This document shows, in pieces, positions 6,296 to 41,227 of a stretch of 64,000 bases of DNA. Position numbers and translations under genes: made by a program. How positions within the stretch are numbered: the first letter of the stretch is position 1; the number at the start of each line of letters is the position of its first letter. Under the pieces are notes generated by a model, which worked only from the letters and a program-made list of their open reading frames with translations, searched no databases and was not told where the DNA came from. The DNA comes from an uncultured Bacteroidales bacterium (GTDB lineage: Bacteria; Bacteroidota; Bacteroidia; Bacteroidales; P3). The stretch covers positions 21,184-85,183 of the forward strand of contig ONQD01000004.1 in assembly GCA_900319865.1 (NCBI GenBank). The letters run 5' to 3'.

Positions 6296-6666
6296 ACTGT
6301 AGCACTGTAGCAACTGCAACGCTGGCGGATTGATTAATGCTGGCTCCGCCAGCGGGATACAAACCCCACCACTCGCGTGGCACCCCATTGAAAAGCGGAC
6401 GCCGCCGGCGCGCAGGGGATGGAGGCGGCGGCTGAGGGCGACAACTGCTTGGGTGTGAATGGTGTGCACGGGAATAGGGGTGCATTGAGGATGAGGGCGG
6501 GGTTGTTGCGGCGTTGCAGTGCTACAGTTGCTACAGTTGTTAGGAGGACTATACAGGGTCCGAGTTATACTTTATATTATATATTATATATATAATATAT
6601 AATATAAAAATATTTTTGGGCATGGGAATGGGGGATTATGAACTGTAGCAACTGTAGCGGTGTAGC
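6296..6666. repeat. ACTGTAGCA nonamer arrays in both orientations
   Basis: Plus orientation: 6296-6312 (ACTGTAGC ACTGTAGCA) and 6642-6666 (ACTGTAGCA ACTGTAGCG GTGTAGCA). Inverted: 6521-6539 (GCTACAGTT GCTACAGTT). The 17-mers at 6521-6537 and 6642-6658 are exact reverse complements and are placed symmetrically about position 6589.5. The same inverted pair occurs at 37,184-37,286. Confidence 0.85.
6572..6607. repeat. perfect 36-bp AT palindrome
   Basis: Two 18-base arms of only A and T (TTATATTATATATTATAT and its reverse complement) with no loop. The centre (6589.5) is exactly the centre of the flanking 17-mer inverted repeat. Possible roles are a duplex-unwinding element, a recombination site or a cruciform. 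Confidence 0.9.
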
Positions 6667-6881
6667 ATTTTTTTTTGGGGGGGGTGGTCGGACTTGTCCG
6701 ACGAAAGGGGGGTGTGAGGGTTGTGTGTAGGGTCGGTGGGGGGTCGGTGCGGGTTTGGTTGCTTGGCGAAGGCTGGGTGAGGGCACAGGGCGGTGTCGGG
6801 GGTGGTGCGGCTGGTTTTTGGGTTGGGGGGTGGGCGCTGGGGTTGGCAAAAGTTTTTTTGATTTTTTTTTTGGGCGGGGCT

Positions 6882-6965: not shown

Positions 6966-7841
6966 ATGGCAATTTTCAATGGAATCGGGAGCAATCTCCG
7001 CGGCAGTGCCGGCAACTGGACTTTCACACGCCTGGCAGGCCAAACGATTGCAAAACAGAAGGTGAACACCAAGGGTACGAGTCCGCGTACTTTCGCCCAG
7101 ATGGTGCGCCGCGTGGCGTGGGCCAACATCGTGAACATGTGGCGCGCTTTCGAGGGGCTGGACCGCCCCAGTTTCGAGGGACGCGACCCACGTCACAGCG
7201 ACTTCAACGAGTTTATGGGTGCCAATCTGGATGTGGTGCCTGTGTTCCTGGACAAGGAGGAGGCGCGCGCTGGCGGCTGTGTGGCGGCTCCCTACCAGGT
7301 GACCCGCGGCAGCCTGCCCAGCATAGGGCTGGAGAGCGGCGACGGCGGAGTGGTGAAGACCTCGGTGCAGCTAGGCGACCTGGTGATTGGCAGCAACACC
7401 ACCGTGGCCGAGTTCAGCACCGCCGTGTTGACCAACAACCGCGATTTCGCGGCAGGCGACAATATCACGGTGTTTGTGGTGCACCAGCTGTTGGACGCCG
7501 CAACTGGGGTGCCCCGCGTGGAGGTGAGCGAGAGCAATGTGACCCTTGACCCTGAGGATTCGGTGACGCTGCTTTACGACACCGCGATGCAAGAGGCATT
7601 CAGCACGGTGGACGGGGTGCTGGGCATGAGCGGCAGCATGGACGGCGCAGTGGTGTACATCCACAGCCGCAAGACGGCAAGCGGCACCGCGGTGAGCACT
7701 CAGCGACTGCTGGCAAAGAACGCCATCCTGGCTTCTTATCAGACGGCCACCAAACGCGACGAGGCCATCGCCTCGTATGGCGGAAAGACCCAGCCGCTGT
7801 ATCTCACCCCCAACGGCAACGATGTGGAGGTGCAGCACTAG
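6966..7841 (+). CDS. DUF6266-like protein
   Basis: A 291-residue protein without a signal peptide. The N-terminus (MAIFNGIGSNLRGSAGNWTF, then QTIAKQKV and RTFAQMVRRVAWANIVNMWRAF) follows the pattern of Bacteroidota DUF6266-type proteins, in which a glycine-rich start is followed by a tryptophan-bearing helix. The remainder is beta-rich (VTLDPEDSVTLLYDTAM, GAVVYIHSRKT). The function of the family is unknown. It stands alone with its own promoter and a strong terminator, next to the repeat-rich stretch at 6,296-6,900. High GC codon use contrasts with the AT-rich genes to its left. Confidence 0.6.
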   Translation: MAIFNGIGSNLRGSAGNWTFTRLAGQTIAKQKVNTKGTSPRTFAQMVRRVAWANIVNMWRAFEGLDRPSFEGRDPRHSDFNEFMGANLDVVPVFLDKEEARAGGCVAAPYQVTRGSLPSIGLESGDGGVVKTSVQLGDLVIGSNTTVAEFSTAVLTNNRDFAAGDNITVFVVHQLLDAATGVPRVEVSESNVTLDPEDSVTLLYDTAMQEAFSTVDGVLGMSGSMDGAVVYIHSRKTASGTAVSTQRLLAKNAILASYQTATKRDEAIASYGGKTQPLYLTPNGNDVEVQH

Positions 7842-7895: not shown

Positions 7896-7922
7896 GTCGG
7901 ACGGGTCGGACGGGTCGGACGG
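7896..7922. repeat. three units of the 9-nt GTCGGACGG minisatellite, intergenic
   Basis: GTCGGACGG three times, immediately after the T tract of the terminator and ending 15 bases from the 3' end of the protease gene. It belongs to the same family as the arrays at 9,906-9,959 and 27,219-27,270. A solitary inverted pair, GTCGGACTTGTCCGAC, is at 6687-6702. Confidence 0.85.
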
Positions 7923-7937: not shown

Positions 7938-10319
7938 TTAGAGGCAGAGCTGGATGCCGGCTTCGAAGCGGGGGAGGTTCAGCTTGAAGGCTGTGGGGCT
8001 GGTGGGGTCGGAAGTGTAGCTGGTGGTCAGGCCGGTGAGGCGGTAGCGGCAGTAGATGCCGATGGCATCGTAGGAGAAGCGGGTGGTGACGCCGAAGTTG
8101 AACTTGTAGTTGTCCTGATATTCGGGATTGTAGACGGTGCTGTTGGCACTTTCGGCATGACTGTAGAGTTTGCCCTCACGGACATAATGGTATCCGCCGT
8201 AGGAGACATAGGCTCCGAGATCCCAGTGGACTCCCTTGCCGAGCATTCCGCCACCAACAAAGCGTACACGCTGGAACAGCTCGAGGCTGCCCTCGTCGAA
8301 GATGTAGTATTTCTTGCTGGGGTTGTTCGCTAAAGCGAAGAGGTTGTCGAGGCGGTTAGGTTTGTCGGGGGCGAAATTGAACCGTGTGGTGGCATATTCA
8401 AGTCCGATGCCGATGCTGTAGGCCTTGGCCACGCGGTCGAGCATACGGATGCCGATATGCATAGCGGGCGAGAAGAATTTGCATTCCTGCTCCTGCGAAC
8501 TGAGGCTGAACATGTTTCCTGCCATGAGGTAGAAGTCCCAATAGATGTTGCTGACATCCCAGCCGTCCTTATACGATTTCTGCACAAGGGTGAGGTCGTT
8601 ACCGGTGATTCTCTGTACTATATCGTCGTTGTTCTGTATGATATAACCGGGGCGGGAGAAACTGCACTTGGTGTCGAACCCCGAGACGGCGAGGAGTTGG
8701 TTCTGCTTGTCGGTGAGGCGGAAAGAGGCGGTGTAGCCGTTGTACCACACGTTGAGTGTGCGGCGGTAGAGCTGGTTCTTGGGGAAGCTGATGGCGCTGG
8801 CGGTGTCGATAGTATCGATAGTGATGTGGATGTAGGCATCGAGTGTGCCCTCCTCGTTTTGCCAATTGAAGAAGATGGGGCGGCTGAGGTCTTTAGAGCC
8901 GATACTGTTGAGCAGGTGCACCTCTATGGAGTCGGCCTTCTCGACAAAGCGGAAGGTGGGGCGGGCAACGGTGTGCTGCCGCTTGTTGCAGAAATAGGAG
9001 GCTTGCGGCACGCCGTAGCCGAAGGCATAGTCGAAATAGGGGTAGAGGTCGGCGGACTTTTCGATTTCATGGAAGAGCTGCATGCCAGTGAGTCCTGGAC
9101 AGGCCTGCAAGGCGCAGGCGGCAAAACCCGCCACCAGGGGGCACGAGAAGGATGTGCCGTCGACATAACTGACCGACTTGTTGGTAGAGGGGCTGGCGGC
9201 CAAGGCATGGCCGAAGGCGGAGACGTTGGGTTTGAGTGTGCCTGTGGCGCTGGGGCCGAAGGAGCTGAAAGAAATGTGTTTATAATTCTTGAGGTTGGCC
9301 TCGATACCACCCACGCAGAGCGCGCTGTCGGCATCGGCGGGGGTGATGATGGTGCGCCAATGGTTGTCGGTTGCCTCGTTGCCGGCCGAGTTGCAGACCA
9401 GAATGCCTTTACGGGCAGCCATGTTGGCGGCTTTGGCCACATAGGAAGTGCCGTTCATCTCCTGCACGTTGTAGCGTTCCTTGCCGTAGCCGAGCGAGCT
9501 GCTGATGATTTGAGCGCCGTTCTTGTCGGCCCATTCCATAGCCTGCATCCACCATACTTCCTCTTTGAAAGGCTCCATTTCCACCTCGGTGCGAGCCAGG
9601 AGGAACTCGGCACCGGTGGCCAGACCGAGGTGCCGTCCGTCGGGGGCAATGCCGGCGATGCAGCTGAGGGTCATGGTGCCGTGACTGTTCCAGCCGTAGA
9701 CATCCTCCTTATTGTTGCAGAAGTTCCAGGTCTTGATGATTTGATGGTTGTCGAACAGGTGCTTGAAAGCCTGATGGGTGTTCACCTTGGGGAAACCGCC
9801 GTCGAAGACAGCAATGCGGACACCCTTGCCGTTGATGCCGAGTTGGCTGAACTGGTGGCCACCCATGCGGACCAGCTGGTCGGTGAGATTGGGGAGGGGG
9901 GAGTTGTCGGACTGGTCAGACTGGTCAGACTGGTCGGACTGGTCGGACGGGTCGGACTTGGCTAGCTGCATGTCACCGCCGATGCGGTGGGTGCCTTTGA
10001 CGAAGGGCAGCTGCTGGATGCGGCTCATCTGCTCGGGTGTGGCCATCACGGCGACGGCGTTGAGCCAGCGGGAGGTGCCCACCTCCTCGGTAGCGATAGC
10101 GTCGATTTGCGACACGTAGCCGCTGTTGAGCGGGTAGTTGCTGATGTCGTAGAGGTCGGCACCGCATTGGTTGTAACGCTCGATGGCTTTGGCGTCGAAA
10201 TAAGTGTAGGGGTTGAACGTGGTGCCCTGCTTGTCGGTGAGGAACACCCAATAGCACGACTGGCTGAAAGCCGGAAGTGCCACCATGAGAGTGAATAAGG
10301 CTAAAAGGATTTTTTTCAT
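7938..10319 (-). CDS. subtilisin-like (S8) serine protease with extra C-terminal domain
   Basis: A 793-residue exported protein. The signal peptide (MKKILLALFTLMVALPAFSQ) ends near residue 20. A propeptide-like region follows to about 115. The S8 domain spans about 155-450: Asp173 in AVFDGG, His213 in GWNSHGTM, oxyanion Asn314 in NSAGNE and Ser390 in GTSFSCPLVAGF are all present, so it should be active. Between propeptide and catalytic domain lies a SDQ tripeptide tract (about 122-138). From about 560 to the end, alternating aromatic strands (YWDFYLMAGNMFSL, HWDLGAYVSYGGYHYV, YDAIGIYCRYRLTGL) suggest an outer-membrane barrel or a large beta domain instead of a T9SS sorting domain. It lies 70 bases after recO in the same direction. 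Confidence 0.85.
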   Translation of the reverse strand: MKKILLALFTLMVALPAFSQSCYWVFLTDKQGTTFNPYTYFDAKAIERYNQCGADLYDISNYPLNSGYVSQIDAIATEEVGTSRWLNAVAVMATPEQMSRIQQLPFVKGTHRIGGDMQLAKSDPSDQSDQSDQSDQSDNSPLPNLTDQLVRMGGHQFSQLGINGKGVRIAVFDGGFPKVNTHQAFKHLFDNHQIIKTWNFCNNKEDVYGWNSHGTMTLSCIAGIAPDGRHLGLATGAEFLLARTEVEMEPFKEEVWWMQAMEWADKNGAQIISSSLGYGKERYNVQEMNGTSYVAKAANMAARKGILVCNSAGNEATDNHWRTIITPADADSALCVGGIEANLKNYKHISFSSFGPSATGTLKPNVSAFGHALAASPSTNKSVSYVDGTSFSCPLVAGFAACALQACPGLTGMQLFHEIEKSADLYPYFDYAFGYGVPQASYFCNKRQHTVARPTFRFVEKADSIEVHLLNSIGSKDLSRPIFFNWQNEEGTLDAYIHITIDTIDTASAISFPKNQLYRRTLNVWYNGYTASFRLTDKQNQLLAVSGFDTKCSFSRPGYIIQNNDDIVQRITGNDLTLVQKSYKDGWDVSNIYWDFYLMAGNMFSLSSQEQECKFFSPAMHIGIRMLDRVAKAYSIGIGLEYATTRFNFAPDKPNRLDNLFALANNPSKKYYIFDEGSLELFQRVRFVGGGMLGKGVHWDLGAYVSYGGYHYVREGKLYSHAESANSTVYNPEYQDNYKFNFGVTTRFSYDAIGIYCRYRLTGLTTSYTSDPTSPTAFKLNLPRFEAGIQLCL
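9906..9959. repeat. six units of the 9-nt GTCGGACTG minisatellite inside the protease gene
   Basis: Units GTCGGACTG, GTCAGACTG (twice), GTCGGACTG, GTCGGACGG and GTCGGACTT. Read on the minus strand they encode a Ser-Asp-Gln/Pro tract in frame. The period of 9 keeps any change in copy number in frame. Confidence 0.95.
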
Positions 10320-15593: not shown

Positions 15594-16757
15594 TTAAAAC
15601 TTGTGGTCGAAAACCTTGTAGAAATTCTTCACAACAAGCGAGTTATTGTTCCACATGTATTGTGCCGCCACTTCGTCCACATAGGCCAGAGCCTCCTCGC
15701 GGTCGGTAAAGGCATTGAGACGCAGGATAAAGTCGTTGTATGCCTTCATGTTGTTGTGGAACAGTTCGCTCATGAAACTGAATTTGTCGTTGATGTTGAT
15801 AATGGTTCTCAAGTCGTCCACCTTCTTCGACTTCACACGGGTTTCCAGCTGGTCCTCCACCGTGCGGCCGCCCTGATTCAGAGTGTCGGCCAATGTGCGT
15901 TTGGGTTTATTCTCGCCATTATCCTGGTTGAGGTAGTCGAACAGCGACGACTCGCGTTTTTTGCTTCCGGCTGCTGCCGCGGGCTTTTGGGACTCTTCGG
16001 TAAAGAGGTCATCGTTCGGATTGCCTTCCAGCGACTCCATCACCGGTTCGGCTATGGGAGCTTCCTCCTCGGCTGCTGTGGGAGGGGCAAATATCGGGCG
16101 GAATTCTTCGTCGTTGGCGGCAGCCTCTTCGGCTTTGCGTTTCTCCTCAGCTGCTTTCTTTGCGGCAGCTTCTTCGGCTTTGCGCTTCTCCTCGGCCAAC
16201 TTTCTTGCGGCGGCCTCTTCAGCCTTGCGTTTCTCTTCCGCAGCCTTCTTGGCGGCAGCTTCCTCAGCTTGGCGTTTCTCCTCGGCTGCCTTCCTTGCGG
16301 CTGCTTCCTCTGCTTGGCGTTTTTCCTCTGCTGCTTTCCTTGCGGCTGCTTCCTCTGCTTGGCGGTTCTCCTCTGCATCCTTCCTTGCGGCGGCTTCCTC
16401 TGCCTGGCGTTTCTCTTCCGCTGCCTTCTTGGCGGCGGCTTCCTCTGCTTGGCGTTTCTCCTCGGCTGCCTTCCTTGCGGCGGCCTCTTCGGCTTGGCGT
16501 TTCTCCTCAGCTGCCTTACGTGCTGCGGCCTCCTCGGCCAAACGCTTCACCTCGGCCGCATTCAAATCGGGATCCACTATCTTCGGCTTTAACTCCTCAG
16601 CCTCCAACTGAAGAGCAACCATATAGAGATTGCGGAGTTCCTCCAATATGATATCAATTTCAATTTTGGGGGCAGCGCCCTGATTTTGGCGGATACGCGA
16701 GGCTATCAACCCAAGCCTTTCCATACCCTCAAGAAGCAAGTTTCTTGTATTCTTCAT
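15594..16757 (-). CDS. Ala/Glu-rich 15-residue-repeat coiled-coil protein
   Basis: A 387-residue protein. The ATG at 16757 (MKNTRNLLLEGMERLGL) is preferred to the upstream ATG at 16817, because it lies downstream of a good promoter whereas 16817 would lie too close to the -7 box. About 1-62 is a helical N-terminal domain. About 63-215 is an array of roughly ten 15-residue units of the form AEEAAARKAAEEKRQ. A linker and a conserved C-terminal domain follow (SLFDYLNQ; then IININDKFSFMSELFHNNM to FYKVFDHKF). That C-terminal domain is common in Bacteroidota proteins of unknown function. The highly charged single-helix region could act as a spacer. The rigid repeat DNA makes copy-number variation likely. 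Confidence 0.8.
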   Translation of the reverse strand: MKNTRNLLLEGMERLGLIASRIRQNQGAAPKIEIDIILEELRNLYMVALQLEAEELKPKIVDPDLNAAEVKRLAEEAAARKAAEEKRQAEEAAARKAAEEKRQAEEAAAKKAAEEKRQAEEAAARKDAEENRQAEEAAARKAAEEKRQAEEAAARKAAEEKRQAEEAAAKKAAEEKRKAEEAAARKLAEEKRKAEEAAAKKAAEEKRKAEEAAANDEEFRPIFAPPTAAEEEAPIAEPVMESLEGNPNDDLFTEESQKPAAAAGSKKRESSLFDYLNQDNGENKPKRTLADTLNQGGRTVEDQLETRVKSKKVDDLRTIININDKFSFMSELFHNNMKAYNDFILRLNAFTDREEALAYVDEVAAQYMWNNNSLVVKNFYKVFDHKF

Positions 16758-16825
16758 AACGATGTGCTTTATTATTTCATTGATAACAAAAATCTTGCGC
16801 CAAATTACTCGACACAAAACATTTT

Positions 16826-22802: not shown

Positions 22803-24014
22803 TTATAGTTCCTCCTTCAATTCGGCCAAAAGCAGATCGGCAAGAGTGTTCATGTCGGCAAGTTGGTCGGGTTTCATGGCCGACTTTAGACTGAGGTTCT
22901 CGCCCACTACCGAAATATCTTTCATCTGTTCCAGGATAGCACGAATCTGCTTGCCGCTTTGGGCCGCCCAAGTGCCGTTTTCGATAATGGCCACAGTGCG
23001 GTTTTGCCAATTGTGGGCTTTGAGGTCCAGCAAGAGGTTCTCCATCGGGGTGAAGATGCCGGCATTGTAGGTGGAGGAGGCCAACACCACATGGCTGAAG
23101 CGGAATGCCTCGCTCACTAGCTGGCTTACATGGGTGTGGCTTGCATCGTACATGGCGATATTGCGAACGCCGCGTTCGGCCATCAGACTGGCCATCTTCT
23201 CGGCAGCAGAAGCCGTGTGGCCGTATACGCTGGCATAAACTATCAGTAGGCCACGTTCTTCAGGCAGGTATTTGCTCCATGTGTCGTATTTGCCGATAAA
23301 ATAGCCCAGCTCTTTGCGCCAGATGGGGCCATGAAGCGGGCAAATCATCTGGATGTCGATGGTGGCGGCTTTCTTCAAAGCGGACTGCACCTGGACTCCA
23401 TATTTGCCGACAATGTTGATAAAGTAACGACGAGCATCGTCCAACCAGTCGCGGTCGAAATTCACTTCGTCGGCATAGATGTTGCCGTTGAGCGCACCAA
23501 AAGTGCCGAAGGCATCGGCCGAGAAGAGTATTTTGTCAACAGTGTCGTAGGTCATCATCACCTCGGGCCAGTGCACCATGGGTGTCATCACAAATGTCAA
23601 AGTGTGGCGGCCGGTATTGAGAGTGCCGCCTTCGGCAACGGTCTGTAGACGGCTGTCGATGTCGAACGAAAAGAACTGGCGTATCATGGCCGCCGCTTTG
23701 TTATTGGTCACCACCGTAACCGTAGGATACCGCAACACAATATCCTCAATCAGAGCACAGTGGTCTGGCTCCATGTGGTTCACCACAAGATAGTCGAGCG
23801 GACGGCCGTCGAGGGCAGCAGCCACATTCTCAAAAAACTGGCCCGACACAGCAGCATCGGCGGTATCGAGCAATACAGTTTTCTCATCCAAGAGCAGATA
23901 ACTGTTATAGGAAACCCCGCGGGGGATGGGATATACATTCTCGAAAAGGGCCAACTTGCGGTCGCTGGCTCCCACATAGTACAAATCGGATGTTAATTGA
24001 CGATAGTTGTGCAT
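22803..24014 (-). CDS. fprA: FprA-type A flavoprotein (flavodiiron O2/NO reductase)
   Basis: A 403-residue flavodiiron protein of standard length. The metallo-beta-lactamase domain holds the diiron ligands His80, Glu82, Asp84 and His85 (VNHMEPDHCALIED), His148 (MVHWPEVM), Asp167 (SADAFG) and His228 (CPLHGPIW), all present. The flavodoxin domain starts at about 255 with IVYASVYGHTASAAEKMA and includes LASSTYNAG. It reduces O2 to water or NO to N2O in the cytoplasm with electrons from rubredoxin-type donors, two of which are encoded just downstream. A consensus promoter precedes it, divergent from lpxK. Confidence 0.95.
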   Translation of the reverse strand: MHNYRQLTSDLYYVGASDRKLALFENVYPIPRGVSYNSYLLLDEKTVLLDTADAAVSGQFFENVAAALDGRPLDYLVVNHMEPDHCALIEDIVLRYPTVTVVTNNKAAAMIRQFFSFDIDSRLQTVAEGGTLNTGRHTLTFVMTPMVHWPEVMMTYDTVDKILFSADAFGTFGALNGNIYADEVNFDRDWLDDARRYFINIVGKYGVQVQSALKKAATIDIQMICPLHGPIWRKELGYFIGKYDTWSKYLPEERGLLIVYASVYGHTASAAEKMASLMAERGVRNIAMYDASHTHVSQLVSEAFRFSHVVLASSTYNAGIFTPMENLLLDLKAHNWQNRTVAIIENGTWAAQSGKQIRAILEQMKDISVVGENLSLKSAMKPDQLADMNTLADLLLAELKEEL

Positions 24015-25399: not shown

Positions 25400-26080
25400 A
25401 TGAATATTGAAATCTGTGCCAATTCCATACAATCCGCCTCCAATGCTTGCCTGCCTGGTGTTACACGCATTGAGCTGTGCAGCCATCTGGACGTGGGCGG
25501 ACTCACCCCATCGTATCATGATATAGACTACTGTGTGCATCAACTTCACCTACGCACCCATGTGCTCATTCGTCCCAGGGAGGGCAATTTTGTATACAGC
25601 ACCGACGAGATAGAATTGATGCTCAAACAAGTGGAACAATGCCGCAGTCTTGGCGCACATGCCATCGTAGTAGGATTCCTGACCGATAAAGGTGCCGTTG
25701 ACACTGCTCTCACCCGCAGATTTGTCGAACTTGCCCACCCCATGGAGGTCACCTTCCACCGAGCCTTCGACGAACTGAAACAAAACCCTCTCGAAGCCCT
25801 CGAAGACATCATAGGTTGCGGCTGCGACAGGATACTTACATCCGGGCTCCAACCCACGGCCGAACTGGGTATGGAAACCATCCACGAACTGGTGGAACAT
25901 GCTGCTGGCCGCATCTCGATTATGCCCGGAGGCGGCATCACTCCGACCAACGTGGCACGAATCGTCGAGGCCACCGGTGTAAACGAAGTGCACGGTTCGT
26001 GTAAAACCACTCTCACTGACGGCACAGTACAAACCGACCCCAAAATTGTCAATCAACTTATAAATGCATTATCCCGATGA
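25400..26080 (+). CDS. cutC: CutC family protein
   Basis: A 226-residue TIM-barrel protein of standard length. The ATG at 25400 (MNIEICANSIQSASNA) is chosen over a much longer open frame that overlaps lpxK. Family features are RIELCSHLDVGGLTPSY, HVLIRPREGNFVYS, GAHAIVVGFL, EVTFHRAFDE and IMPGGGITPTNV. CutC is named for copper homeostasis in E. coli, but its biochemical role is still uncertain. Its stop overlaps the next start as ATGA, so translation is coupled to the lipoprotein gene. Confidence 0.92.
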   Translation: MNIEICANSIQSASNACLPGVTRIELCSHLDVGGLTPSYHDIDYCVHQLHLRTHVLIRPREGNFVYSTDEIELMLKQVEQCRSLGAHAIVVGFLTDKGAVDTALTRRFVELAHPMEVTFHRAFDELKQNPLEALEDIIGCGCDRILTSGLQPTAELGMETIHELVEHAAGRISIMPGGGITPTNVARIVEATGVNEVHGSCKTTLTDGTVQTDPKIVNQLINALSR

Positions 26081-28866
26081 AAACAAAGCCCATCTCATTT
26101 CGCATCCGTGCTACCCTCATTCCCATTCTTTCACTGCTCCTGCTCTTCCCCTCCTGCAACCGCAACCCCCATTTCATTACAAACAAAGAATACCGCCAAC
26201 AGGTTGAATCCGACTTTGCAACACGCAGTGCCGACCTCAACTTCGGGGCTCTCTCCCTGTGCCTCGACACCCTCAACCGTGCCGAGCGCGAGGCCATGCA
26301 GTTCCTCTATGCCTACATGCCTTATAGCGACCTTGCCGACTATACTCCCGACTTCTACCTCGACCAGGTGCGCTATGCCTTTGCCGCACGTGAGCAGATG
26401 CCTTGGGGAAAAACCGTTCCCGAAGATATATTCCGACATTTCGTGTTGGTATATCGTGTGAACAACGAAAACCTCGACACAGCCCGCATGGCATTCTACC
26501 ACGCACTGAAAGACCGTGTGCAGGGCATGACGATGGAGGAGGCTGCCTTGGAAGTGAACCACTGGTGCCACGAGCATGTGGCCTACCGTGCAGCCGACAG
26601 CCGCACCTCCGCACCCCTCGCCACCATGCGCACCTCCCTGGGCCGTTGCGGAGAGGAGAGCACCTTTGCCGTCACCGCCCTCCGCTCGGTGGGGATCCCT
26701 GCCCGGCAGTGCTACACCCCCCGCTGGGCACACTGCGACGACAACCACGCATGGGTTGAGGTGTGGATTGCAAACCCCGACGGCAAGAGCGGCGAATGGA
26801 AGTTCCTCGGTGCCTGCGAGCCCGACCCCGAACTCAACATGGGATGGTTTGCTGTGCCCAGCACCCGCTGCCTCATGGTGCACAGCAAGGCTTTTGGCCG
26901 CTACCACGGCGATGAGGAGGTAGTCAAGCAGACCGCCCTCTACAGCGAGCTGAACCTCCTTAGCCACTATGCCCCCACACGCCGTGTCACCGCTACCGTC
27001 TGCGGTCCCGACGGCAAGCCCCTGCCCAGTGCCCACGTAAAATTCAAAATGTACAACTACGCAGAATACTACACATTGGCCGACTATGAGACCGACAAAC
27101 AAGGCCAGGCGAGCCTCACCACAGGTCTCGGCGACATATTGGTGTGGGCCACCGACGGCACGCGCTACACCTTCAGCAAATTAGATGTAAGAAAAGACAG
27201 CACTATAACATTAACCCTGTCCGACAAGTCGGACTTGTCGGACCAGTCTGACCAGTCTGACCAGTCCGACATAGTACTCTTAGATATAGTTCCTCCCGCG
27301 CCCGGCACAGCCAAGGTGACTCCTTCCGACGAGGCCGTTGCACGCAACGCCCGCCGTCTCGCCTACGAGGACTCCCTACGAAATGCCTATACAGCCACCT
27401 TCCCCACCAAGGACAACTTCAAGAGCTACCTACCCAAAGACTGGCTCTGGAATCAGGATTTGTTCTCTGATGCTCAAGTGTGGGAAATCGTCCACAAGTC
27501 CGAAGGCAATTACGCCGAGATATACAAATACTTTGAGCACTGGCCAGCCCAATACCGTTCAGGCGAGCATATCTACGACTACCTCAAGTCCTATTCCGAC
27601 AAAGACCTGCGCGACATCACCGCCGATGTGCTCCAAGCCCAAGAAACAGGCTTCGACTGGGTGAACCGCATCCAAGGCACCTGCACCAACGCCCTCTATA
27701 CCTACGACGTGTATAAGAAGGGCATCCTCCCTGCCCGCATCAGCAACGAGCTTGTGCGCGACTGGCGGCAGCCGTTGTTAAAAGAAATGACAGATTTTGC
27801 AAACTGGGTTGATTTGTCCGATAATGGGAGGACGTATCTAAAGCAGAGAATGCAGCCAGAGGCGTATAAGCAAGATTATGAGGCATTGAGAAATTGGACG
27901 ATTGAGAATATTGCCGTGGACGACACAGGCAACTACTACAATTGCCCCATCTCGCCCATGGGTGTGCTCCGACTGCGCCATGCCGATGCCCACAGTCGCG
28001 ACATCTTCTTTGTGGCAGCCTGCCGGGCATTCGACATCCCCGCCTACCTCGACAACGCCACCAACACCATCTACGTCTGGGATGGCACCGATTGGCAAAA
28101 AACCAGCCTAGCTAGTAATGCTAGTACTACTAGCATTACTAGAACTACTAGTTCTTCTAGCCTCACCCTCACCTATCATGGCAAAGAGCCCGCCACCCCC
28201 ATCTACTACCCCCACTTCACCCTCCAGAAACTCGAGAACGGTGATTTCCGCACCTTCGACTTCGAGGACGACCCCCGCATGGCCTCCTTCCCCGCCACCA
28301 TCGAGCTGGAGCCCGGCACCTACTGCCTCAGCACCGGCAACCGCTACCCCGAAGGCGACGTGCTCAACCGCATGGAGTTCTTCTCAGTTGGTGAGGGGCA
28401 GCATGTCACCAAGGAAATCATATTGCGTCCCTTGGTAGACCGCAATAAGCAGAACCTCCCCTGCCTCTCCCCCACCCTCTCGGTGATGGAAGGGGTCACC
28501 CTTGCCGACTATGCCGGCACCACCGGGTGCATTCTGGCCTTCCTGGGACCTCATCGCGAACCCGCCAAACATCTGATAAAAGAGATGCTACAGAACCAAA
28601 AAGCTTTCCAACAATGGGATGGAATGTGCTACATCACCACCACCGACCCCGGCAATGCCGATCTTCTGCAATTGCGTAACACCGATATTGCTAACCTTGC
28701 ACCCAACCACCGCGACCCCATTGAGAAAACTGTGGCCAAGGCACTAAACCTCACAGAATACGAATATCCCCTGGTAGCCGTTGTTGACAACGAAGGGCAT
28801 ATACTTTTCCACAATGCCGGCTACAGCATCGGACTTGCCGAACAGTTGCTCAAACACTGTCGATAG
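26077..28866 (+). CDS. transglutaminase-like lipoprotein with a degenerate second copy and thioredoxin-like end
   Basis: A 929-residue protein. It has a lipoprotein signal with Cys27 in LLLFPSCN. The transglutaminase core shows Cys191 (GRCGEES), His224 (DDNHAWVEVW) and Asp250 (CEPDPELN), a plausible Cys-His-Asp triad. A CarboxypepD_reg-like beta domain spans about 310-380 (ATVCGPDGKPLPSAHVKFKM). A SDQ/SDK tract sits at about 381-398. A second fold resembling the first (LRLRHADAHSRDIFFVAACR, about 630-670) lacks the cysteine. A CTAG-encoded Ser/Thr tract is at about 677-697. The end (AFLGPHREPAKHLIKEM; LVAVVDNEGHILFHNAGY) looks like a thioredoxin fold without CxxC. Surface peptide processing is a guess. 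Confidence 0.8.
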   Translation: MKTKPISFRIRATLIPILSLLLLFPSCNRNPHFITNKEYRQQVESDFATRSADLNFGALSLCLDTLNRAEREAMQFLYAYMPYSDLADYTPDFYLDQVRYAFAAREQMPWGKTVPEDIFRHFVLVYRVNNENLDTARMAFYHALKDRVQGMTMEEAALEVNHWCHEHVAYRAADSRTSAPLATMRTSLGRCGEESTFAVTALRSVGIPARQCYTPRWAHCDDNHAWVEVWIANPDGKSGEWKFLGACEPDPELNMGWFAVPSTRCLMVHSKAFGRYHGDEEVVKQTALYSELNLLSHYAPTRRVTATVCGPDGKPLPSAHVKFKMYNYAEYYTLADYETDKQGQASLTTGLGDILVWATDGTRYTFSKLDVRKDSTITLTLSDKSDLSDQSDQSDQSDIVLLDIVPPAPGTAKVTPSDEAVARNARRLAYEDSLRNAYTATFPTKDNFKSYLPKDWLWNQDLFSDAQVWEIVHKSEGNYAEIYKYFEHWPAQYRSGEHIYDYLKSYSDKDLRDITADVLQAQETGFDWVNRIQGTCTNALYTYDVYKKGILPARISNELVRDWRQPLLKEMTDFANWVDLSDNGRTYLKQRMQPEAYKQDYEALRNWTIENIAVDDTGNYYNCPISPMGVLRLRHADAHSRDIFFVAACRAFDIPAYLDNATNTIYVWDGTDWQKTSLASNASTTSITRTTSSSSLTLTYHGKEPATPIYYPHFTLQKLENGDFRTFDFEDDPRMASFPATIELEPGTYCLSTGNRYPEGDVLNRMEFFSVGEGQHVTKEIILRPLVDRNKQNLPCLSPTLSVMEGVTLADYAGTTGCILAFLGPHREPAKHLIKEMLQNQKAFQQWDGMCYITTTDPGNADLLQLRNTDIANLAPNHRDPIEKTVAKALNLTEYEYPLVAVVDNEGHILFHNAGYSIGLAEQLLKHCR
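27219..27270. repeat. GTCGGAC-type 9-nt minisatellite inside the lipoprotein gene
   Basis: Units GTCCGACAA, GTCGGACTT, GTCGGACCA, GTCTGACCA (twice) and GTCCGAC, encoding SDKSDLSDQSDQSDQSD in frame. The first two units form a small palindrome. Same family as 7,896-7,922 and 9,906-9,959. Confidence 0.95.
28108..28160. repeat. CTAG tract with exact 9-bp period
   Basis: CTAG occurs at 28108, 28112, 28121, 28130, 28139, 28148 and 28157; the last six are spaced by exactly 9. The five bases between are variable but form nested palindromes (CTAGTAATGCTAGTA facing TACTAGCATTACTAG). It encodes a Ser/Thr/Ala-rich linker in frame. Confidence 0.95.
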
Positions 28867-37177: not shown

Positions 37178-37290
37178 GCTACAGCTACAGTTGCTACAGT
37201 TCCATACACCACTAATCGGTCATTTGGGGGTTCCTCCTATTGCAGCTCTCCAAAAAAGAAGGTTTTCAAACTGTAGCAACTGTAGCGTAG
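37178..37290. repeat. second inverted ACTGTAGCA nonamer pair
   Basis: GCTACA GCTACAGTT GCTACAGTT at 37178-37201 and ACTGTAGCA ACTGTAGCG at 37270-37287. The 17-mers at 37184-37200 and 37270-37286 are exact reverse complements, 69 bases apart. Same unit as at 6,296-6,666. The remaining 160 bases to the next gene are G-rich and hold no recognised feature. Confidence 0.9.
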
Positions 37291-38960: not shown

Positions 38961-41227
38961 TTGTGCGACAGCAATGGGCTGCCGCTCACCTTCATGTTGT
39001 AGCGTTGGTGGTAGGGATAGTTACAGCATTCGTATTGCGAGAAGGGTACCCCCGGGCTGGTGTAGAGCACCATGTCCACGTCGCTGGTGTCGCTCGGGCG
39101 CGGGCGATGGTACGGCAGTGGCGCTACGGGCTGTGTCTTGGCGAGGTCGATGGTCACCCTGCCGCTGGTGGGGTTGGGGTATGCCTTGGCCTGTCCGTCC
39201 GCGCCGACGGTGGCGATGCCGACATTACCCACGGTGAGGAGGCGTTGTACAGGCTCGGCGGGGAAATACTGGTAGTCGCCATCCTGCGTGGCGGTGAGCC
39301 ATGCGTGGCCGTCAGCCACAAGGTGCAGCCTGTCGCCCTCGACATAGGCGATGGTGCTGTCGCTACTGGTGTATGACACGGGCAGCCCGCTGGTGGCTGT
39401 GGCGGTGAGCGTCACGGGACTGTCAGCCAAGGTGAACACCAAGTCCTGCTGCCATTCAATCGTCTGCTCCTGCCTGTCAGAGGGATGCACGTAAGGCTGA
39501 GCAAAAGCGGGGTCAACGTACTTGGCTATAAATGCTTGGCTATTGCCATGATTCTGAGTTGTAATGTCGCCAAACGAAATATCCTCGTACGCACTTCCTG
39601 TTAGGTACAAGATGCTGTCTTTGATAATTGGAGAATTAAATATATTTTCTGGACTACGAACATTGAAATGTATAGGGAGGTCTATCGCACAACCACTATA
39701 ATCCCAAATGGCGAGCCATCTGTCCCAATCACCACTATTGGATGTAGAATATAACATATCACCAAAGTACATACCATTCATAAACTTTGCTTGGGCAAAA
39801 ACTCTGTTGTTGTAAGCCGCCAAGAGGGGGACAGCACACCTTCCGTTTTCAACAGATCGTGCCTGTCCATAGGATAGAAGGCTGAGGTTGTCTTTGTCCA
39901 AGCGAAGCCAAAATGCTGTCATATTAGCAAAATTAAGGGTATCATCGTTATAGAAAACATGTTCCATCGTCTCTGTCCAATCAACCATTCCTGGAACGAA
40001 TAAGGAATTTGTGTTGTTATCAATATACGGATACATTAATAATATCCCTACCGATGAAGGATTATTGGAGCGAGATTCATATGACAACTGAACTAATCCT
40101 GTTGCTTCCAGTTGAGAATTGTATTTAAGGATCCATGTCGGCCTTATAGTGGAATCGCCTAAATAAAGGGAATTGGAGTTTGCAATTCTGAGACCACTCA
40201 GTACAGAATGCGCTTCCATATTAAAATACAAATTGTTTTGAGAATCCATTTCGAATGAATAGACTTCTGAGGTGGGGACATTGTAGTACAGGGTAGAGTC
40301 GAACATATATACGGCATCCAACAAACTGTCGAAATGGGGAGAGAACTTCAGAATCTGCTGATTACACAAGGAAGTCGGATGAGGTATTTCATATTTTAGG
40401 AAATGGGTACCGTCAACCGCTATCCTCATGGCTCCTATTGTACCGTCGTCAACTCTCCACATTCGGTAATCATTAGTACTGGCATCGTATGGACCAATAA
40501 AATAGTCCGCATGGACGCTACGGATGACATAGATGTTGCCATCAGTATCAATATTGAAACTTTCTGCTGACAAGAGATTAGTTGACATTCGATCAAGGCC
40601 TTCTCCCCGCATGAACCTTGGGGTCAGAACATTTCCTATTGAGTCTGTATATCCGACACAAACAAAATGCTGCTCGGTAACATTCCCATCAAAGTCGAAC
40701 GTAATAAACCCGTTTTGTCGTCTACCCACACTGTCTCTGGGCATCAGGTAGTCGCTGTTGCCAGTTATCAACGTGTCCAAATAATACAAGTCATAGCTTT
40801 CTGAATAACTCCAGAAATATGGGTTATCGAAATGCACCATCGCCATAATACTGCTGTCACCCACCATCCGAAGCGCATACGCGTAGCATGAAACCTTGCC
40901 ATTGTATATGGCCTTGTGCCATAGAAGTTCACCTGACTGGGAGAGCTTGGCAATCACGACGGCACGCTGGATTGGCGTAGTGATTATGTCAAAAGGCAGG
41001 AGCCTTTCGTCGCCAAAAAAAGCTTGCGGTGAGAACTCACCGAGGATGTATATGTTTCCAGACGAGTCGACACACGAACCGATTATACGATTGGTCGGGT
41101 CGTCACTGTTGCGAATCTCCGGCCCCGTGTAGGTGCTTACCCACTCGAAGCCCTGAGCCCTTAATGAATTGAGAATTAAGAATTGAGAATTGAGAATTAA
41201 GATGGCTAAGAATAATACTTTTTTCAT
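38771..41227 (-). CDS. T9SS type A cargo protein, paralogue 1
   Basis: An 818-residue exported protein. Signal peptide MKKVLFLAILILNSQFLILN ends near residue 25; its second half is encoded by a heptamer DNA repeat. The body has repeated phrases of the SBBP/propeller-like kind (VDSSGNIYILGEFS, SGELLWHKAIYN, DTDGNIYVIRSV). A Big-like module follows at about 590-680 (ADSPVTLTATATSGLPVSYT), then the sorting domain starting YPNPTSGRVTIDLA. That domain is interrupted by about 50 residues (PLPYHRPRP to GSPLLSHNG) before resuming at VTAWLTDMQGRREEVVL and ending RLMKQYGRK. Paralogous to the gene at 42,544-44,934. Cell-surface or secreted; function unknown. Confidence 0.85.
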   Translation of the reverse strand: MKKVLFLAILILNSQFLILNSLRAQGFEWVSTYTGPEIRNSDDPTNRIIGSCVDSSGNIYILGEFSPQAFFGDERLLPFDIITTPIQRAVVIAKLSQSGELLWHKAIYNGKVSCYAYALRMVGDSSIMAMVHFDNPYFWSYSESYDLYYLDTLITGNSDYLMPRDSVGRRQNGFITFDFDGNVTEQHFVCVGYTDSIGNVLTPRFMRGEGLDRMSTNLLSAESFNIDTDGNIYVIRSVHADYFIGPYDASTNDYRMWRVDDGTIGAMRIAVDGTHFLKYEIPHPTSLCNQQILKFSPHFDSLLDAVYMFDSTLYYNVPTSEVYSFEMDSQNNLYFNMEAHSVLSGLRIANSNSLYLGDSTIRPTWILKYNSQLEATGLVQLSYESRSNNPSSVGILLMYPYIDNNTNSLFVPGMVDWTETMEHVFYNDDTLNFANMTAFWLRLDKDNLSLLSYGQARSVENGRCAVPLLAAYNNRVFAQAKFMNGMYFGDMLYSTSNSGDWDRWLAIWDYSGCAIDLPIHFNVRSPENIFNSPIIKDSILYLTGSAYEDISFGDITTQNHGNSQAFIAKYVDPAFAQPYVHPSDRQEQTIEWQQDLVFTLADSPVTLTATATSGLPVSYTSSDSTIAYVEGDRLHLVADGHAWLTATQDGDYQYFPAEPVQRLLTVGNVGIATVGADGQAKAYPNPTSGRVTIDLAKTQPVAPLPYHRPRPSDTSDVDMVLYTSPGVPFSQYECCNYPYHQRYNMKVSGSPLLSHNGVVTAWLTDMQGRREEVVLTPTGPDRYTLDLTSRPPAAYLLTITTTDGRELTFRLMKQYGRK
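41166..41200. repeat. GAATTGA/GAATTAA heptamer array
   Basis: Five 7-base units: GAATTGA, GAATTAA, GAATTGA, GAATTGA, GAATTAA. On the minus strand three units make a 7-codon period and encode ILNSQF-type residues of the signal peptide. Confidence 0.95.

Follow-up and report, generated by a model that had tools for sequence, protein, structure and literature searches.

Why should one short DNA unit stand both between genes and inside two unrelated exported proteins of the same bacterium? This question is raised by a 64,000-nt stretch of an uncultured rumen Bacteroidales bacterium (assembly GCA_900319865.1, contig ONQD01000004.1, positions 21,184 to 85,183; hereafter the window), where tandem copies of a 9-nt unit are present in intergenic DNA, in an S8 protease gene and in a transglutaminase lipoprotein gene. 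The unit consists of GTC-N-GAC and two variable bases, an odd palindrome repeated at strict 9-bp spacing. We followed it through the window's own genome (G000; 2.9 Mb in 84 contigs, 92% complete), 119 genomes of the genus, a sample of 393 genomes of the order and 295 other genomes of the phylum. Arrays of this kind lie beside genes of a family of small proteins, TIGR04258 of NCBIfam, named 'four helix bundle suffix' (4HS), and the array motif, here termed dialect, follows the clade of the protein. We consider it probable that the repeats of the window are dispersed 9-nt arrays, each family of which has a cognate 4HS protein that recognises its 9-mer and maintains or spreads it, in the manner of repetitive extragenic palindromes (REPs) and their REP-associated tyrosine transposases (RAYTs), with no recognised transposase.

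Period-9 arrays usually flank the 4HS genes

The counts reported here, beside the gene (cis) as well as away from it (trans), rest on the 150 of 182 4HS matches in the genus that were fetched. A gene was scored as flanked when a period-9 array was located within 250 bp upstream, or between -60 and +200 bp downstream. Such an array accompanies 119 of the 150 genes, as compared to 6 of 176 background genes, which were predicted by our own script at stricter thresholds with genes too close to an end left out (Fisher 6e-51; since species share ancestry, this and the trans p-values are optimistic, i.e. too small). At lags 6-8 and 10-14, arrays were recovered at 0-9 of the same 150 genes. The six background matches represent three arrays, each counted for both neighbours, and the period-9 rate among background genes is nothing special, with 7 of 176 at lag 11 and 5 at lag 7. 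Outside the genus, a period-9 array is present at 12 of 28 loci, whereas lags 5-8 and 10-17 each yielded none or one and the harmonic lag 18 yielded 5.

Followed by eye along the protein tree, the motif of the flanking array varies by clade, with TCNGA/GTCNGAC, CTAG, ATGGG, CTTAAGGAC, ATTAGTC/ATAGGACC and TCTAGA/CTATAG types; the clades belonging to the first three are referred to as H, F and D, respectively. Most cores are palindromic by eye (TCNGA, CTAG, CTTAAG), which would fit a symmetric binder. In a leave-genome-out comparison limited to the three rule-classified dialects, the flanking dialect agreed with that of the closest protein from a different genome in 83 of 83 cases, as compared to a mean of 27 and a maximum of 42 under 500 shuffles, the cases not being independent events since orthologues inherit their flanks by descent. 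For this comparison one of 151 loci (L466) held no gene at threshold, 66 of the 150 genes fell outside all three rules, and 83 of the 84 classified genes had a usable neighbour. Two sub-dialects of TCNGA were predicted in 25 of 25 cases. Moreover, 16 genomes hold 4HS paralogues flanked by different dialects, and genome composition is therefore not the cause.

Among the 12 flanked loci outside the genus, 8 fit the dialect of the nearest clade. L541 (GTCNGAC) is nearest to that clade and L540 (ACTAG) to the CTAG clade, and L516, L526 and L527 (ATAGGCC/ATTAGAC types) as well as L518, L521 and L535 (CTTAAGG types) are nearest to their own clades, the single best match of L527 being G031, which is rule-classed as ATGGG. 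In Prevotella nigrescens FDAARGOS_1486, the one 4HS gene found is followed by a period-9 CTAG array 41 bp 3' of the gene. A scan of the first 300 kb gave four CTAG arrays, all of period 9, with periods 6-8 and 10-15 empty; one adjoins the 4HS gene, the others are approximately 33, 59 and 224 kb off, and all are located in stretches devoid of a listed gene in a gene table that is incomplete. The record analysed is a 568-kb entry of a plasmid collection, the other replicon being outside the comparison.

These data bear on an origin as ordinary minisatellites, in which chance 9-mer seeds in DNA free of constraint grow by replication slippage and unequal recombination, gene conversion between arrays makes them alike within a genome, and the 4HS flanks merely tolerate arrays. 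The arrays do occupy hypervariable linkers and short gaps, the N bases of adjacent units agree a little more often than under permutation (163 vs 151, p 0.036), one lipoprotein orthologue (G021, see below) holds a tract of another period instead, and many arrays reside in genomes with no matching clade found. However, slippage gives no preference for 4HS genes over others, and in its simple form would leave array location independent of any particular gene, contrary to the flanking counts above. It also provides no reason for related proteins in different genomes to share a dialect, for paralogue-specific dialects within one genome, or for period 9 to be favoured at 4HS genes. We regard this explanation as unlikely.

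Arrays away from the gene

A preliminary description of the window had proposed a mobile or templated repeat that tolerates landing in genes, and had considered that no other copies might exist. Copies are found throughout G000: three-unit TCNGA at period 9 yields 55 matches and three-unit GTCNGAC 51, both with 0 for the reversed control, and GTCSGACNNGTCSGAC yields 28 vs 0 for the reversed pattern. Thus, the proposal stands as regards a dispersed DNA-level family with many copies, some within genes; movement itself was never observed. The flanking G and C are kept in 51 of the 55 TCNGA matches, though the search did not demand them; the invariance of TC and GA is partly by construction, as detection demands both. 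Arrays contain 2-10 units, and the central N shows almost no bias (G 122, A 118, C 118, T 106) over the 464 units of 98 distinct TCNGA arrays, most of which come from the genus. In the genus, 88 of 119 genomes have TCNGA arrays, with 0 to 155 matches per genome and 0-3 for the reversed control, except in G075 (21) and G094 (10). The three-unit GTCNGAC pattern was absent from all 295 other genomes of the phylum sample.

For the trans comparison, clades were assigned solely from proteins of other genomes at an identity threshold of 0.45. With cis arrays included, the matched pairs gave p 8e-13 (TCNGA-H), 8e-5 (CTAG-F) and 6e-6 (ATGGG-D), and the off-diagonal pairs 1e-2 (TCNGA-F), 0.08 (TCNGA-D), 1e-3 (CTAG-H), 1.5e-2 (CTAG-D), 0.7 (ATGGG-H) and 0.8 (ATGGG-F). 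Restriction to the 92 genomes where all copies were fetched or none found, cis matches kept in, gave 2e-8, 2e-3 and 5e-3 on the diagonal. Removal of matches at most 1 kb from fetched 4HS genes (329 of 3100 for TCNGA, 135 of 1136 for CTAG, 84 of 352 for ATGGG) left a median of 52 TCNGA matches in genomes with the H clade (n=34, none zero) vs 3 in those without (n=85; p 2e-11). Grouping by the dialect of the genome's own 4HS flank returned 6e-9 for TCNGA, 3e-5 for CTAG and 6e-3 for ATGGG. The trans link is strong for TCNGA, and suggestive only for CTAG and ATGGG. Separately, a long period-9 ACTAG run is located at approximately 23230-23486 of G034:C80, the sole 4HS gene found in that genome belonging to another clade.

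Several GC-rich viral contigs (0.59-0.70) also bear GTCNGAC arrays of period 9 with variable N (L143/L182, L153, L158/L186, L174, L180, L196, L232, L241, L260), some of them in frame (SDRSDPSDQSDK in L232); gene content was looked at for L182 and L232. A search of viral contigs and phages for TIGR04258 relatives found none. Collagen-like Gly-X-Y repeats, with constant N and a GPT reading by eye, account for part of the viral matches and were set aside.

Arrays of operators or other binding sites offer a second alternative, with the 4HS protein being a nucleoid or regulatory DNA-binding protein whose sites selection would preserve for their use in organising the chromosome or regulating genes, and no selfish spread. 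The mostly palindromic cores (by eye) and fixed spacing are congruent with such a role, as are the strong purifying selection on the 4HS protein and a coiled-coil-like end in the CTAG clade (see below). Nevertheless, array positions are poorly conserved between species, match counts range from 0 to 155, and the arrays within protein linkers are read in more than one frame. We hold this reading to be improbable.

Arrays of the window and their reading frames

Within the window, GTC.GAC..GTC.GAC occurs 13 times, each of the 63 other 3-base palindromes in the same layout occurring at most twice, and lone GTC.GAC is present 27 times vs 13.9 (sd 3.4). The preliminary description had taken GTCGGACTG as the unit; with at most one mismatch it appears 28 times, whereas shuffled sequence gave 13.0 on average (sd 3.7) and 26 at the most. 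The 9-nt repeat is real, but the fixed sequence is not, since N and the two bases between cores vary.

The four places that it had reported are present. The inverted pair GTCGGAC-TT-GTCCGAC (GTCGGACTTGTCCGAC; 7-bp stem, 2-nt loop) lies at 6687-6702 between predicted genes, corresponding to G000:C37:27870-27885. Three units, GTCGGACGG, occupy intergenic positions 7896-7922 on the plus strand, just after what appears by eye to be a hairpin and T-run, itself 3' of the gene at 6966-7841. Six units at 9906-9959 on the minus strand are inside the S8 protease gene (7938-10319, minus), where they read SDPSDQSDQSDQSDQSDN in the linker preceding the Peptidase_S8 domain (residues 164-436). Six more at 27219-27270, on the plus strand, are inside the transglutaminase lipoprotein gene (26077-28866) and read SDKSDLSDQSDQSDQSDI. 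All four are of the GTCNGAC dialect. Overlooked at that stage were the associated TIGR04258 protein, the other dialects, and six CTAG cores of period 9 at 28112-28160 (plus strand), in a second hypervariable linker of the lipoprotein. The latter array has the dialect that flanks the second 4HS gene of G000, on contig C47; G000 has GTCNGAC-type and CTAG-type 4HS genes, and both dialects are present in the window.

In-frame Ser-Asp-x tracts, as originally described, hold for both the protease and the lipoprotein gene. On an approximate gene model, 22 of 39 arrays lie within predicted genes, 15 in the Ser-Asp/Glu-x frame and 7 in another (TSQ, NQS, STP), and 17 are intergenic. The lipoprotein gene of G064 reads its two arrays in two different frames, and several intergenic arrays hold CTAG linkers, which are stops in the Ser-Asp frame on both strands. 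Because the same DNA occurs in two reading frames and between genes, the repeat belongs to the DNA and not to the protein.

Among orthologues of the protease and of the lipoprotein, the tract varies in presence, length and sequence, and is not carried by all at the same length, the other outcome that had been considered. At the same linker of the S8 protease, the tract differs or is absent, with SDQ in G000 and SENSEYSE in others, and two species at 86% identity have SAPSALSDQSDLS and SPEQSDMSTLS at the site. At the first lipoprotein site, G000 has 6 units, G081 and G064 have 8 each, those of G064 being of another linker type, and G118 has 4; G021 has no period-9 units, a period-7 CTCAATT tract being present instead. 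The second site has six CTAG units in G000 and nine TCNGA units in G064.

The palindromic units may also be viewed as RNA hairpins selected in transcripts, as terminators, operon spacers or an excised stem resembling intervening sequences. Inverted ATGGG/CCCAT arms are found 3' of clade D genes, long inverted repeats are visible by eye within the P. nigrescens arrays, and TCNGA arrays contain 66 reverse-complement linker pairs vs 3 reversed-only pairs, self-complementary linkers being among the 66 and identical pairs numbering 357. However, unit order provides no clear folding gain over shuffled order (TCNGA p 0.12, 118 arrays; CTAG p 0.055, 54; ATGGG p 0.15, 19), adjacent N bases are not preferentially complementary (39 vs 47 expected), and no Rfam match was obtained at the three loci tested (L283, L465, L349). 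Since unit order lacks a clear folding signal, a selected RNA hairpin is very unlikely. Selection for Ser-Asp/Glu-x linkers in exported proteins, which the in-frame reading of the protease and lipoprotein arrays would suit, is contradicted by the two-frame and intergenic arrays and can be dismissed almost entirely. Restriction sites (TCNGA is the Hpy188I site) and 9-bp transposon target duplications, as at Tn10-like targets, were considered too; neither accounts for several dialects, variable inter-unit bases or the 4HS link.

Other repeats were encountered. At 6521-6658 and 37184-37286 of the window, GCTACAGTT twice and AACTGTAGC twice are opposed around 102 and 67 bp; their 9-mer occurs 9 times in the window vs 0.3 expected, and they look like a small inverted-repeat element of 9-nt units, perhaps in another dialect. 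Period-7 GAATTGA/CTCAATT tracts, present at 41161-41202 and at the lipoprotein sites of G021 and G081, recur where period-9 arrays stand elsewhere, and are possibly a separate 7-nt family. A 45-bp tandem repeat of 9.3 copies spans 16117-16535, within the open reading frame 15594-16817. A unit of approximately 41 bp (gagccgtcgcgaccggatgggagcaacgtctcgcc...) is present in three copies in G027 and in a single copy in G021 (L336, L337), just 3' of a conserved gene.

The 4HS protein and its genes

G000 has a 4HS gene at C25:36994-37560, one small gene between two GTCNGAC arrays, and the same array-gene-array order is found in G081, G017, G118 and G126. The second, at C47:32602-33252, has a CTAG array upstream, and the third, at C42:75202-75813, a GGAATNAAT-like array at the gene end. 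The 188-aa C25 protein scores 81.9 bits against TIGR04258 and a G027 homologue 78.3 (cut-off 40), and against TIGR02436 (cut-off 24) the former is above with 29.5 and the latter below with 19.6. The Pfam family 23S_rRNA_IVP (PF05635) is matched at 1e-6, under its gathering score, and the single solved relative of the family profile at E up to 1 is XCC0516 (2gsc, E 0.011). PADLOC recognised no defence family in three 4HS proteins, and PHROGs gave nothing above noise. In the CTAG clade, the end of the protein looks like a coiled coil by eye. The genes are under purifying selection, with a ratio of nonsynonymous to synonymous substitution rates (dN/dS) of 0.075-0.109 in seven of eight pairs, the eighth being saturated. 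TIGR04258 is present in 88 of 119 genus genomes, 86 over the cut-off, and in 49 of the 393 of the order sample, two of these in the genus.

In G027, G021 and G103, the slot preceding the transketolase-like neighbour of the C25 gene (named from its sequence) harbours a diverged homologue, with ATGGG/CCCAT nine-mers in the gene end and the downstream DNA. Across this slot (L346-L355), five species have an H-clade and three a D-clade 4HS gene, and none was recognised in G064, G119 and G018; it looks as if the cassette had been exchanged in place.

Comparison with known systems

The arrangement shares several features with REPs, their doublets forming hairpins (REPINs) and RAYTs. In both cases, a small gene is bordered by short palindromes of its own repeat family, non-coding copies are scattered over the genome (a strong link for TCNGA here, a weaker one for CTAG and ATGGG), one genome can host several protein-repeat pairs, and protein and repeat co-evolve. 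In P. fluorescens SBW25, three REPIN types each adjoin their own RAYT (PMC3116915), and TnpA-REP groups are reported to have co-evolved with their REPs (PMC8266576). The RAYT is, however, an HuH/Y1 (TnpA-REP) transposase, whereas scans of two 4HS proteins revealed no transposase family; the REP is an extragenic palindrome or doublet of 20-40 bp, as opposed to 9-nt tandem units with variable positions, and the arrays described here enter protein-coding linkers. Because the defining transposase was not found, we do not classify the arrays as a REP system, though they would work like one.

The 23S rRNA intervening-sequence protein (PF05635) is of the same bundle family, but the C25 gene is located between protein-coding genes, outside any 23S rRNA gene, and its product has an extra C-terminal 'suffix' domain and is flanked by 9-mer arrays. 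We presume kinship to the Avd four-helix bundles of diversity-generating retroelements. The Avd system includes a reverse transcriptase and a template/variable repeat; none was noticed by eye among the predicted neighbours in five C25-locus genomes, no dedicated search for a reverse transcriptase having been made. Palindromic elements of Rickettsia and Wolbachia, to which the window's repeats had initially been likened, also occur in genes and gaps, in frame and in unrelated proteins. The likeness does not extend to their build: each insertion is a single longer palindrome, for which we know of no cognate protein, in contrast to arrays of 2-10 units at fixed 9-bp spacing, with variable positions and an associated protein. 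Cyanobacterial short tandemly repeated repetitive (STRR) heptamers similarly form dispersed short tandem arrays, with a unit of 7 and, to our knowledge, no cognate protein, as opposed to 9 and a matching protein here. The literature searched, which covers few subscription journals, does not mention TIGR04258, its name or its accession, and queries on the repeat strings, on nonamers and minisatellites, and on four-helix bundles with Avd or IVP gave nothing matching among the matches listed. The data suggest a so far undescribed kind of repeat-and-protein pair.

Proposed mechanism and implications

We propose that 4HS proteins, which probably assemble into dimers or higher bundles, recognise the core, in most dialects a palindrome, at intervals of 9 bp. 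They would promote the expansion, copying or retention of cognate arrays via host replication or recombination, with arrays persisting where they may be least harmful, in protein linkers and short intergenic gaps. The flanking in cis, the clade-specific dialects, the abundance of TCNGA in trans, the independence of reading frame and the purifying selection are observed; that the protein recognises its 9-mer directly, and helps to make, expand or keep arrays, is what we infer.

Several observations weigh against this proposal. No period-9 array accompanies 31 of the 150 4HS genes, and at 4 of the 12 flanked loci outside the genus (L520, L525, L536, L542) the nearest protein has a different dialect or one that is unclear. 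When two 4HS proteins were scanned against Pfam and NCBIfam, no catalytic domain was detected, and nothing but four-helix-bundle families rose above noise. With cis matches taken out, CTAG-F retains p 1e-3, but CTAG-H and CTAG-D reach 6e-3 and 9e-3, and ATGGG-D is at 0.02. Of the 119 genomes, 17 in which no gene of clade H was found have at least 15 TCNGA matches, 11 in which none of clade F was found have 8 or more CTAG matches, and 20 predicted to carry clade F have fewer than 4; incomplete bins, unfetched copies, gene loss and lumped sub-dialects may account for part of these exceptions. The viral contigs with GTCNGAC arrays show no 4HS gene in the stretches examined. At two protein sites, the arrays occupy linkers that are hypervariable anyway, and no array gain with clean flanks was seen: an intergenic site on C42 is array-free within 500 bp in nine of nine readable sisters with unalignable gaps (ten species compared, the tenth, G030, ending at its contig).

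More tentatively, 4HS proteins might be sequence-specific 'writers' or keepers of tandem DNA that are not transposases, each imposing its own 9-nt dialect at permissive sites, the gene forming an array-core-array element that co-evolves with its dialect. If so, protein and repeat would together form a replicator that lacks a classical recombinase and supplies proteins with new linkers.

What appeared to be a minisatellite thus becomes a testable one-gene, one-repeat system, where the 4HS clade predicts the flanking 9-mer from sequence, and a family named only 'four helix bundle suffix' obtains a functional lead. Alongside REPINs, the arrays provide a natural comparison case for repeat persistence in bacteria. 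Should the 4HS protein recognise the 9-mer, it would found a new class of proteins that bind nucleic acids sequence-specifically, with numerous natural specificities; should it make the arrays, it would offer a new route for repeat growth in bacteria and for proteins to gain disordered linkers.

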